Below, piece by piece: positions 22,973-56,486 of a stretch of DNA of 64,000 bases. The notes beneath the pieces are model-generated. The model saw nothing but the letters and a program-made list of their open reading frames with translations. It was not told where the DNA came from and did no database searches. The translations under genes and the position numbers were made by a program. Origin of the DNA: Halorubellus sp. JP-L1 (GTDB lineage Archaea; Halobacteriota; Halobacteria; Halobacteriales; Natrialbaceae). The stretch spans positions 1,550,001 through 1,614,000 of the forward strand of contig NZ_JAAOIR010000001.1 of NCBI RefSeq assembly GCF_011440375.1, given 5' to 3'. Numbering within the stretch: the first letter of the stretch is position 1; each line of letters opens with the position of its first letter.

Positions 22973-23045
22973 GCCCGGGTGGTGTAGTGGCCCATCATAC
23001 AACCCTGTCACGGTTGTGACGCGGGTTCAAATCCCGCCTCGGGCG
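22973..23045 (+). tRNA. tRNA-Asp (GTC), copy 1
   Basis: This is a complete 73-base cloverleaf. The acceptor is GCCCGGG / CTCGGGC with discriminator G. The anticodon loop CTGTCAC gives GUC, and the T loop is GGTTCAAATCC. CCA is not encoded. It is identical over all 73 bases to copy 2 at 23784. A TATA-like CCTTAATCG lies about 30 bases upstream. A stem-loop and a partial copy of its 3' end follow. Confidence 0.97.
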
Positions 23046-23048
23046 CTT

Positions 23049-23097
23049 TCTGACGACGACAAACCGACGAGCGAAGCGAGGAGTCTGTCGTCGTCGA
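23049..23097 (+). terminator. Stem-loop after tRNA-Asp copy 1
   Basis: CTGACGACGACA pairs with TGTCGTCGTCG around a loop containing GACGAGCGAAGCGAGG. The counterpart after the second tRNA-Asp unit (23987-24036) keeps the pairing with altered bases (GACGGCGAC / GTCGCCGTC), which suggests selection for the structure. A role in ending tRNA transcripts or in 3' processing is plausible. Confidence 0.5.
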
Positions 23098-23133
23098 AAC
23101 GCTACGTTTGAATTGAATCAGGGAGCGAGCAGA

Positions 23134-23167
23134 CGTGAGCGACCGTGGTTCGAATCCCCCTCGGGCA
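23134..23167 (+). repeat. Partial tRNA-Asp 3' end (echo) after copy 1
   Basis: GGTTCGAATCCCCCTCGGGC repeats the T-arm and 3' acceptor strand of tRNA-Asp without the rest of the gene. It ends 122 bases after the end of copy 1. Copies of tRNA 3' ends are typical footprints of integrase attachment sites; see findings for the constant spacing. Confidence 0.75.
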
Positions 23168-23268
23168 CTTTTCCAGCGATCAACGACTGAGGAGCAAAGC
23201 AGCATGCGTGTCGGCTTGGGCACCCGGTAGTTTAATACATTCGCGTGGTTTCCTGCGGAACAAAGAAC

Positions 23269-23691
23269 ATGCCTGTCGGGAATTCGAAATCTGTCGGAGA
23301 CGAGACGGAAGTAGCAATCCTACACGAGTTACTCGTCGCAGGGTGGAGCGTGTCAATTCCGTTTGGTGACAACGATAAATATGATCTCGTCGTCGATGAC
23401 GGTGAGGATCTCTACCGGATTCAATGCAAGACGGCATGGCGAAACAAAGTAGAAACTATCCGGTTTAATACGCACTCGCAAACGACGAAGAATGGAGAGT
23501 ATCACGAGTCGACGTACGACGAGGTAGCAGACGCTTTCATCGTCCGCTTTCCATACGATGGGCAACTCTACTGGATCGACGTTGAGGATGCGACCAAACA
23601 GAAGATGGAATTACGGTTCGACGCAGCTATCGATCACCCGTCAATAAACTGGGCATCCGAATTCGAGTTCGATCCGCACCGTTCCCTGTGA
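23269..23691 (+). CDS. PD-(D/E)XK nuclease-like protein (group I intron endonuclease type)
   Basis: This 140-residue protein has a PD-(D/E)XK-like core: a helix ETEVAILHELLVAGWSVSIP, then GDNDKYDLVVDD (the acidic D), then DLYRIQCKTAW (QxK in place of ExK). This matches my memory of the group I intron endonuclease family PF11645, not checked. Codon use is clearly less GC-biased than in neighbouring genes, so the gene is probably acquired. TTTAATAC at 23231-23238 gives a short leader before ATG 23269, preferred to GTG 23245. It lies exactly between two identical tRNA-Asp genes, which suggests a mobile or hitch-hiking nuclease. Its target, and whether it is active, are unknown. Confidence 0.75.
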   Translation: MPVGNSKSVGDETEVAILHELLVAGWSVSIPFGDNDKYDLVVDDGEDLYRIQCKTAWRNKVETIRFNTHSQTTKNGEYHESTYDEVADAFIVRFPYDGQLYWIDVEDATKQKMELRFDAAIDHPSINWASEFEFDPHRSL

Positions 23692-23783: not shown

Positions 23784-23856
23784 GCCCGGGTGGTGTAGTG
23801 GCCCATCATACAACCCTGTCACGGTTGTGACGCGGGTTCAAATCCCGCCTCGGGCG
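23784..23856 (+). tRNA. tRNA-Asp (GTC), copy 2
   Basis: This 73-base gene is identical to copy 1, with anticodon GUC, acceptor GCCCGGG / CTCGGGC and discriminator G. Both copies look functional. The perfect identity of the tRNAs, against diverged flanks, suggests recent duplication or gene conversion. Confidence 0.97.
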
Positions 23857-23948
23857 CTTCTTCCAGCGACCAACGAACGAGGAGCGTCGCGACGAGCGAG
23901 CGGTCGGTGAAAAACGCCGAAAAGGGATTCGAAGCGGGGAGCGAACCT

Positions 23949-23983
23949 CGTGAGCGACCGTGGTTCGATTCCCGCCTCGGGCG
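23949..23983 (+). repeat. Partial tRNA-Asp 3' end (echo) after copy 2
   Basis: GGTTCGATTCCCGCCTCGGGC repeats the T-arm and acceptor 3' strand; it ends 127 bases after copy 2. It is preceded by CGTGAGCGACCGT, as is the echo after copy 1. Its downstream stem-loop resembles the one that directly follows copy 1, as if the flanks had been exchanged by recombination. Confidence 0.7.
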
Positions 23984-24429
23984 CCCTCTGACGGCGACAA
24001 CGCGACGAGCGAAGCGAGGGGTCCGTCGCCGTCGAGGGAGAGACGAGTCCGAGCGGTTGCGGATGTGGGTGCCAGTTCGTGAGTGGTGGGTGTCTTCGTT
24101 GGCGGAGTTGGTGTTGGTGAGCGGCGCTGGCGGTGTGCGGTGCGTCGAAAAGTGTCAGAGGCGGTGGCGGTTGGGGCCACTTCCATCACGAAGCTGCCAC
24201 CGTCGGTCGACAGGTCGGTGTCCTCGGTGGATGACAGGGCGTCCCTGTCGACAGTTCGGCCTTGTCTCGGGTACGTATTAGTGGTCCCGGTGACTCAAGG
24301 AACTGTTTGAGGCTCCGTTCGCGTCGGTCTCGCCGGCTGGAGCGGGTTGTACGACCCTGGGAGTGGCCGTGTCCTAGTACGTGAAGGCGCGGGCTGTGGT
24401 TGAAGTGGGATGGGGCGGCCAGGCGGGGT
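23984..24429. other. Non-coding interval
   Basis: The first 55 bases hold a stem-loop (GACGGCGAC / GTCGCCGTC) with an internal GAGCGAAGCGAGG. The remaining ~390 bases have no convincing gene. Open frames there lack haloarchaeal codon bias, and no RNA gene was recognised. CGTATTAGTGG near 24276 could be a promoter-like element. Confidence 0.5.
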
Positions 24430-54824: not shown

Positions 54825-55123
54825 GACCCACCATCGACAGATCGCACCCGAAAACGTTCCGGAACGCGACAGCCATCCAATCCCGCACTCCACGACCACA
54901 CCACCGGCACCGCCACCGCTTGGTTCGCGAGCGCGACGAACCACGTCCTACGACGATCCTCGTTCCGACAACAGCACCCAGACCCCGTGTCAGCCCCAGC
55001 TTCGAACCACAAACAAAGGTACCCGCTTCCCCGCCCACGACCCCGAACAGCCAGATCGCCGACGGATGGACCGTCGGGTTTCACCGACGACTCGCAACGC
55101 TCATCGTCTCGTTCACAGCAGCA
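54825..55123. other. Non-coding interval before the tRNA-Phe echo
   Basis: No gene is supported. The perfect hairpin CCGACGG-ATGGA-CCGTCGG lies at about 55060-55078. Open frames in this stretch are Arg/Thr/Ser-rich and lack haloarchaeal amino-acid use. Confidence 0.45.
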
Positions 55124-55148
55124 ATGCCGCCTCCCGGATTTGAACCGG
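55124..55148 (-). repeat. Partial tRNA-Phe 3' end (echo)
   Basis: The 25 bases are identical to 55245-55269, the T-arm side and acceptor 3' strand of tRNA-Phe. They lie 121 bases downstream of the real 3' end. This parallels the two tRNA-Asp echoes. Confidence 0.85.
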
Positions 55149-55245
55149 AACCAGACGTGCTCGCTTCGCTGCGCGCGACTGGTAGGATTCAAATCCGCTC
55201 GGCGTCGTTTCTTCGACCGTTCGCTCCGCTCACGGTCTCAGAATA

Positions 55246-55319
55246 TGCCGCCTCCCGGATTTGAACCGGGGACAGCTCGATCTTCAGTCGAGTGCTCTCC
55301 CAGTCTGAGCTAAGGCGGC
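55246..55319 (-). tRNA. tRNA-Phe (GAA)
   Basis: This is a complete 74-base tRNA on the minus strand. The acceptor is GCCGCCT / AGGCGGC with discriminator A, the anticodon loop CTGAAGA gives GAA, and the T loop is GGTTCAAATCC. CCA is not encoded. A stem (GACCGT / ACGGTC) with GAGCGGAGCGA in its loop follows, then the 3'-end echo. Confidence 0.97.
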
Positions 55320-56408: not shown

Positions 56409-56412
56409 GAAG

Positions 56413-56486
56413 TGGGCACGGACGGAGTCGAACCGTCGGCCTCTTCCTTGTAAGGGAAGCGTCATGACCAACTAGACCACGTGCCC
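56413..56486 (-). tRNA. tRNA-Val (TAC)
   Basis: This is a complete 74-base tRNA on the minus strand. The acceptor is GGGCACG / CGTGCCC with discriminator A, the anticodon arm is CTTCC-CTTACAA-GGAAG giving UAC, and the T arm is CGACGGTTCGACTCCGTCC-like. Unlike tRNA-Asp and tRNA-Phe here, I see no 3'-end echo downstream. Confidence 0.96.

Follow-up and report, generated by a model that had tools for sequence, protein, structure and literature searches.

Tandem non-coding units behind haloarchaeal tRNA genes: candidate cassettes stacked at integrase attachment sites

Introduction

Why should a tRNA gene be followed, at a nearly constant distance, by a copy of its own 3' end, and why should the same happen behind tRNAs of different families? 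The question is raised by a stretch of 64,000 nucleotides from Halorubellus sp. JP-L1 (hereafter, the window), in which the original prediction placed such copies, here called echoes, behind tRNA-Phe and two tRNA-Asp genes, and offered either a small non-autonomous element or a conserved processing structure as the cause. A search of the open-access literature found no published description of these units, and the haloarchaeal tRNA-tail cassettes are apparently undescribed in that literature.

Results

Three tRNA genes in the window are followed by echoes

The tRNA-Phe(GAA) gene (55246–55319, minus strand; ARAGORN, Rfam RF00005) hosts one unit, and the echo predicted behind it was borne out, ending 121 nt past the gene: 24 nt at 55125–55148 are identical to the last 24 nt of the gene, their source, and 25 nt when the following T is counted. 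Between gene and echo, on the same strand, lie a stem with a GAGCGGAGCGA loop (hairpin 1, 55209–55243), an inverted copy of the T-arm (GCGGATTTGAA, 55188–55198), and a second hairpin (hairpin 2, 55149–55187) of what we term type b (CCTACCAGTCGCGCG...CACGTCTGG). A degenerate hairpin-1-like remnant, read by eye after the echo (55082–55118, minus strand), possibly marks a lost second unit.

Both tRNA-Asp(GTC) genes, identified by ARAGORN on the plus strand at 22973–23046 and 23784–23857, have echoes ending 122 and 127 nt past the gene, as had been claimed. The first gene is followed by hairpin 1 with a GAGCGAAGCGA loop (23047–23099), a degenerate inverted T-loop copy (GAATTGAA, 23110–23117), a type-a hairpin 2 (CAGGGAGC...GCGACCGT, 23118–23146), and an imperfect echo of 22 nt (23147–23168), all on the plus strand. 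Similarly, the second is followed on that strand by hairpin 1 (23858–23911), an inverted T-arm copy (AGGGATTCGAA, 23923–23933), a type-a hairpin 2 (23934–23961), and an echo of 23 nt (23962–23984), with another hairpin-1-like palindrome immediately 3' of it (23986–24038, plus strand). The spacer order put forward originally, namely a stem with a GAGCGnAGCGA-type loop, then the inverted T-arm, then the echo, was found at all three genes; pairing between inverted copy and echo is good in the Phe unit and weaker in both Asp units. Local-alignment scores of the Phe, Asp1, and Asp2 echoes were 24, 17, and 20, and the respective maxima over 50 shuffles were 13, 14, and 15. The fourth tRNA of the window, Val-TAC (56412–56486), has no echo.

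The DNA between the two tRNA-Asp genes encodes a PD-(D/E)XK protein of 140 aa (PF11645, E 7.7e-36; 23269–23691, plus strand), possibly a tRNA-linked homing-type nuclease. Its gene occurs once in the genome, and the single copy of Halorubellus salinus is likewise flanked by two tRNA-Asp genes. We rejected it as a general mobilizer of the units, since one copy per genome, at tRNA-Asp in both, is unable to explain the other tRNAs.

About half of the tRNA genes carry echoes

Using the Phe spacer and echo as a query, we obtained ten further matches within the same genome, most of them directly 3' of other tRNA genes when compared with the tRNA list. The echoes at three tRNAs were real but understated the phenomenon: 22 of the 43 tRNA genes in this 3.76-Mb genome are followed by a copy of their own last 22–25 nt (score ≥14), several of them by a tandem series of two or three units. 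At a stricter cut-off, echoes were found at 176 of 241 tRNAs, a set enriched for units through the way it was gathered, compared with 0 of 241 when the downstream DNA was block-shuffled and 9 of 241 when the downstream DNA of another tRNA type was used. In less biased sets, echoes stood behind 20 of the 45 tRNA records of the source genome, where one tRNA is listed twice, and behind 20 of 44 in a second Halorubellus; the control, an archaeon from outside the order, had a single echo in 31 tRNAs. The shuffles, the other-tRNA control, and the genome outside the order rule out chance or composition as the cause. A known Rfam family was likewise discarded: besides tRNA, none matched at an accepted score, and a Plastid-ycf2 match was antisense to the tRNA and below the cut-off.

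The distance is less uniform than the three examples implied. In the source genome, echo ends lie at a median of about 120 nt from the gene (usual range 84–155); in the wider sample the 5–95% range is 91–160 nt, with length shifting with the type of hairpin 2.

Units have a common anatomy and match their own tRNA

Overall, a unit runs from the tRNA tail through hairpin 1, the inverted T-arm copy, and hairpin 2 to the echo, and is often repeated in tandem; along an array, direct and inverted tails alternate, and hairpin 1 and hairpin 2 separate them by turns. The units are non-coding and mostly measure roughly 90–155 nt. Hairpin 1 often starts with TTCT, closes with AGAA, and contains a GAGCGnAGCGA-type inner palindrome. 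Hairpin 2 is CAGGGAGC..GCGACCGTGG in type a, CCTACCAGTCGCGCG..CGTCTGG in type b, and CCTGTGAGTCGCAG..GACCGTCTCAC in type c, and in a rarer type d the echo is short, at about 13 nt, and begins at the T-stem.

Among 262 units, whose counts in different species are not independent of one another, the echo starts at −22/−23, the first T-loop bases, in 191, and its end coincides with that of the tRNA in 173. Over the 12 nt beyond the T-loop, mean identity of the echo is 86% to its own tRNA and 49% to others. The inverted copy complements the variable R57 in 92% of comparisons with its own tRNA versus 50% with others, and remains above the control to about position 65. This tRNA-specificity lends support to the suggested hairpin between inverted T-arm and echo. 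The tRNA-specific inverted copy could be produced by quasi-palindrome correction or by a folded-strand (dumbbell) intermediate.

Hairpin 2 can be common to different tRNAs. For example, the Val(gac) and Ile units of the source genome have 61 identical nt of it in common, and the Val(cac) and Ser(cga) units of H. salinus have 62; the right boundaries of such shared stretches fall at C56|R57 or at the first position where the tRNAs differ. Echoes of a foreign tRNA, sought as traces of jumps across tRNAs, were absent from the two genomes searched.

Separately, 18 echoes of six tRNA types contain an additional C or T after A58 (GGTTCRAYATCC; loci L026, L055, L062, L068, L077, L089, L094, L097, L118, L122, L137, L167, and L217). 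The extra base would spoil the T-loop, and its recurrence at one spot in the echo may be a junction footprint.

Units are limited to Halobacteriales within the sample

Searches with covariance models detected units in nearly all haloarchaea searched and yielded no match in about 240 genomes of other orders in the phylum sample. Model R1, built on types b and c, had matches in 20 of 21 genomes, all of the same order. Model R2, built on type a, had matches in 47 genomes of that order, six listed genomes of the order being without, and 0 matches outside it in the phylum sample of 295 genomes in all. Within this sample, the units are limited to Halobacteriales.

An exact type-a pattern that is blind to tRNAs recovered at least 119 stretches, with titles almost all haloarchaeal. 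Among the 128 matches listed, 113 have a tRNA upstream on the same strand, and these tRNAs bear 30 different labels. The matches listed include one 'Euryarchaeota archaeon' MAG and one record (L152) of Actinarchaeum halophilum, which may lie outside the usual haloarchaea. In IMG/VR contigs the type-a pattern had no exact match, and a virus-borne repeat was set aside on this result.

Whole units are gained, lost, and re-ordered

For most tRNAs, the two Halorubellus genomes concur in the presence of a unit; several are discordant (Lys-ctt, Leu-taa, Tyr, Ala-ggc, and Ser-gga), and the hairpin 2 of the Ile unit is type c in one genome and type a in the other. In Haloferax, orthologous arrays behind tRNA-Gly(ccc), written as unit-type letters assigned by simple similarity clustering, read G-I (in two species), G-A-H-I, H-A-I, G-L-A-I, G-B, and A-B-C-D-B, among others. 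Entire units have been gained, lost, and re-ordered in these arrays, with junctions within the echo.

Some arrays consist of closely similar copies. At G127:C1:2656890-2657417, four units of equal score follow one another with an exact period of 111 bp, and a fifth lies 109 bp further on; this looks like a very recent tandem expansion. The Leu(taa) array of H. salinus likewise contains near-identical copies. Behind its tRNA-Ser(gga) (L221), hairpin 2 of a unit, read by eye, is apparently interrupted by other DNA, possibly a transposon insertion.

Integrase elements share the boundary of the arrays

Fifteen of the type-a matches listed lack a whole tRNA upstream, and 12 of these loci were inspected. 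Most of these arrays begin with a displaced tRNA 3' fragment, and at 9 of the 12 a tyrosine recombinase gene (PF00589) lies within about 0.5 kb on the fragment side. In the 1.5-kb regions around intact tRNAs, no tyrosine recombinase gene was found (0 of 241, E≤1e-5), and a resident integrase beside intact arrays was dropped as a candidate at that threshold.

A tRNA-Lys(ctt) gene of H. salinus illustrates the displacement. Gene and array occupy a single contig, at 446.6 kb and 372.2 kb respectively, and exactly in the 74.4 kb that separate them sits an element (G001:C5:372237-446637; L144, L209) that has a SNJ2-type integrase near the array end and is bounded on each side by a copy of the 36-bp core AGGGGTTCAATTCCCTTCCGGCCCGCTTCTCTCGCG. 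In the source genome, the same tRNA-Lys(ctt) and a homologous array are adjacent, and the Lys-ctt difference between the two Halorubellus genomes therefore reflects an array displaced by the element rather than lost. Its integrase is 43% identical to that of SNJ2 and about 40% identical to those of other betapleolipoviruses, and a second SNJ2-type integrase was also found at arrays. Integrase elements thus use the same boundary as the arrays and displace them. The arrangement of hairpin 1 and inverted copy is missing at the left end of this 74-kb element, and the units are thus apparently not its simple deletion products.

SNJ2-type integrases are reported from Halobacteria only (PMC8371274), which is the range of the units as well. 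Archaeal attachment cores favor tRNA 3' ends and can be as short as 13 bp for SNJ2 (PMC8371274), close to the length of the short type-d echoes. Beside the putative SNJ2 attP core, which we placed by its likeness to a tRNA tail, we detected a strong nested hairpin (DNA z −4.0; 0 of 200 shuffles as stable). Another hairpin, resembling type a (GAATCAGGGA..GACCGTGGTTC) with a long inner loop, was observed in Natronococcus jeotgali (L163, minus strand) at the right end of an integrase-bearing element, beside a tRNA fragment; it may connect the units with autonomous elements. The argument that equal spacing at different tRNA families is not to be expected of single integrase events stands for kilobase-sized elements, but arrays and integrase elements share their attachment point, and integrases are for this reason probably part of the answer.

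Discussion

Proposed cassettes stacked at tRNA attachment sites

The explanation that we put first, and to which we give an even chance, is that the echoes belong to haloarchaeal cassettes, non-coding and non-autonomous, that stack up behind tRNA genes at integrase attachment sites formed by the 3' ends. A cassette would consist of the tail from the T-loop to the 3' end (TQ), hairpin 1, an inverted TQ, and hairpin 2, up to the next TQ, with TQ as the attachment-site core for tyrosine recombinases of SNJ2 or similar type. Insertion at the T-loop would supply a new tail and leave the tRNA intact, the old tail being pushed downstream as the echo; repeated insertion would build up arrays, and recombination between echoes would remove, multiply, or re-order units. 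The small non-autonomous element of the original prediction gains support in that units lie behind about 30 tRNA species across Halobacteria among the matches listed, occur in tandem, and turn over as wholes. An integrase acting in trans would presumably move the small units, and the hairpins and inverted copy would serve recombination. Against this explanation, no recombinase gene was found within 1.5 kb of intact arrays at E≤1e-5, a tRNA-specific inverted copy is unexpected under plain site-specific recombination, and a double-stranded circle of 120 bp would be very small as an integrase substrate. In polyploid cells, tandem arrays could also turn over through slippage or through homologous recombination of the ordinary kind.

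This last point leads to the strongest competing account, which we consider somewhat unlikely: the units would resemble satellites, having arisen long ago when the 3' region of the tRNA was duplicated in tandem. Homologous recombination, gene conversion, and template switching at the palindromes would keep them up without a dedicated recombinase, and quasi-palindrome correction would tune the inverted copy to its tRNA. The recent exact expansions in G127 and at H. salinus Leu(taa) are in line with such upkeep, as is the restriction of hairpin 2 exchange to the part that is homologous between tRNAs, and the arms of hairpin 1 are near-perfect inverted repeats that vary in sequence and show no G.U preference. 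Nevertheless, duplication of this kind leaves unexplained why such a variety of tRNAs should have units beginning at their 3' ends, and accounts neither for the same hairpin types behind some 30 tRNA species (among the matches listed) nor for a boundary equal to that of integrase elements.

Selection on a tRNA-trailer RNA is less probable still. The unit would be transcribed with the tRNA and function in 3' maturation, termination, protection, or as a source of small RNAs, and the echo would capture the inverted copy, preventing the tRNA from misfolding. Units always lie downstream on the same strand with consistent folds, and hairpin 2 and the T-loop pairs show covariation, with double changes in 13 of 21 pairs, part of which stems from copying of the tRNA and not from selection. 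The E. coli rtT RNA, an annotated small RNA, has a parallel arrangement. Against a selected RNA, the same tRNA may occur with or without a unit in two species of one genus, and unit number and order vary within Haloferax. The mismatches, with a mixed outcome, bear on the conserved processing structure that was proposed originally: in the hairpin-1 stem, 9 G.T versus 18 A.C (p 0.12) amount to no excess of G.T and speak weakly against it, whereas the inner helix of hairpin 2 has 24 G.T versus 7 A.C (p 0.003, due partly to one fixed junction position). We conclude that selection at the RNA level is possible for hairpin 2 and unlikely as the main force on hairpin 1.

It is conceivable, if quite improbable, that the units move as folded single strands, as integron-like cassettes on tRNA genes. 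A circle of TQ, hairpin 1, inverted TQ, and hairpin 2 would fold into a dumbbell, its stem being a double-stranded tRNA attachment core with a hairpin capping either end, a substrate for recombination into tRNA genes by tRNA-targeting integrases. If true, this would account for the need of the inverted copy to match the tRNA, and the system would have arisen in haloarchaea, with the E. coli rtT repeats as a perhaps independent second case.

Already disfavored, and in our judgment very improbable, is that the units are remnants of independent integrations by kilobase-sized viruses or plasmids whose interior was later lost: they do share the attachment core of integrase elements, and integrated elements without an integrase are known (PMC8371274), but independent decay would not repeatedly give the same two hairpins, inverted copy, and 90–160 nt spacing, the two-hairpin anatomy recurs behind some 30 tRNA species among the matches listed, and neither hairpin 1 nor the inverted copy is present where the 74-kb element begins on its left.

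If stacked cassettes are indeed the right explanation, an archaeal class would have recombining tiny non-coding cassettes at about half its tRNA genes. How elements keep matching the tRNA they enter then becomes a question that is testable in Haloferax, and a second question is what stacks at tRNA genes without cargo. For annotation, tRNA tails near haloarchaeal tRNA genes need not signal a prophage.

Comparison with known systems

SNJ2-type elements, which sit at the arrays, combine a tyrosine integrase with a tRNA 3'-end core and a hairpin beside attP. They differ in having genes and an integrase of their own (PF02899/PF13495 plus PF00589); the units have none, and the neighboring elements at displaced arrays do. 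REP- and MITE-type repeats are, like the units, short, multicopy, palindromic, and non-coding. Their copies are dispersed; the units, unlike them, are almost confined to tRNA 3' ends and contain tRNA-specific parts. In the accessible part of a REP survey (PMC12306157), 'Halo-' taxa are absent, tRNA receives one passing mention, and no tRNA-linked units appear.

The closest parallels of the units are cis-mobilizable elements (CIMEs), the Dehalococcoides ssrA islands, and the E. coli rtT repeats. A CIME lacks an integrase and is bounded by att sites where its target gene ends; later arrivals insert and stack there (PMC5704250). Similarly, the units are flanked by direct repeats of the tRNA 3' end, leave the tRNA intact, and have no integrase or transfer genes, being mostly 90–155 nt and too short for them; an SNJ2-type integrase was likewise absent from all 241 regions of 1.5 kb at E≤1e-5. 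CIMEs, however, are decayed ICEs or IMEs, whereas the units are non-coding, about 90–155 bp long, and share a fixed anatomy of two hairpins and an inverted copy at dozens of tRNAs. For the ssrA islands, the accessible part of the report (PMC3146451) describes how many 20-bp copies of the ssrA 3' end follow the gene in tandem, and insertion is deduced to take place in the T-loop; the islands have a single target gene, a serine recombinase, and genes inside, and no inverted-copy or hairpin unit is described in that part.

The array architecture may also be likened to integrons. Integron cassettes form an array of units between recombination sites, and their attC site is a folded imperfect hairpin. 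The units would resemble them as arrays between recombination sites, but have no gene cargo and a tRNA tail as their core.

The rtT repeats have been known since the 1970s. At E. coli tyrT/tyrV (K-12 1285800-1287800, L259), we found three 19-nt tRNA-Tyr tails with an exact period of 178 nt, and the spacer contains an inverted copy of the tRNA-Tyr T-arm, GGGGAAGGATGAGAA (score 11), which was equaled in 1 of 500 shuffles for tyrV and 3 of 500 for tyrT. We know of no earlier mention of this inverted copy. The RtT RNA family (RF00391) had no match at the Phe unit at E≤1, nor in the window at the gathering cut-off, and the repeats belong to one operon here, not to the whole genome, with an annotated small RNA and the tpr gene. 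They nevertheless share with the units both the tandem boundary at the tRNA 3' end and the inverted T-arm copy inside. If the cassette explanation is right, the haloarchaeal units connect tRNA-gene attachment sites, the growth of arrays, and this oddity of E. coli.
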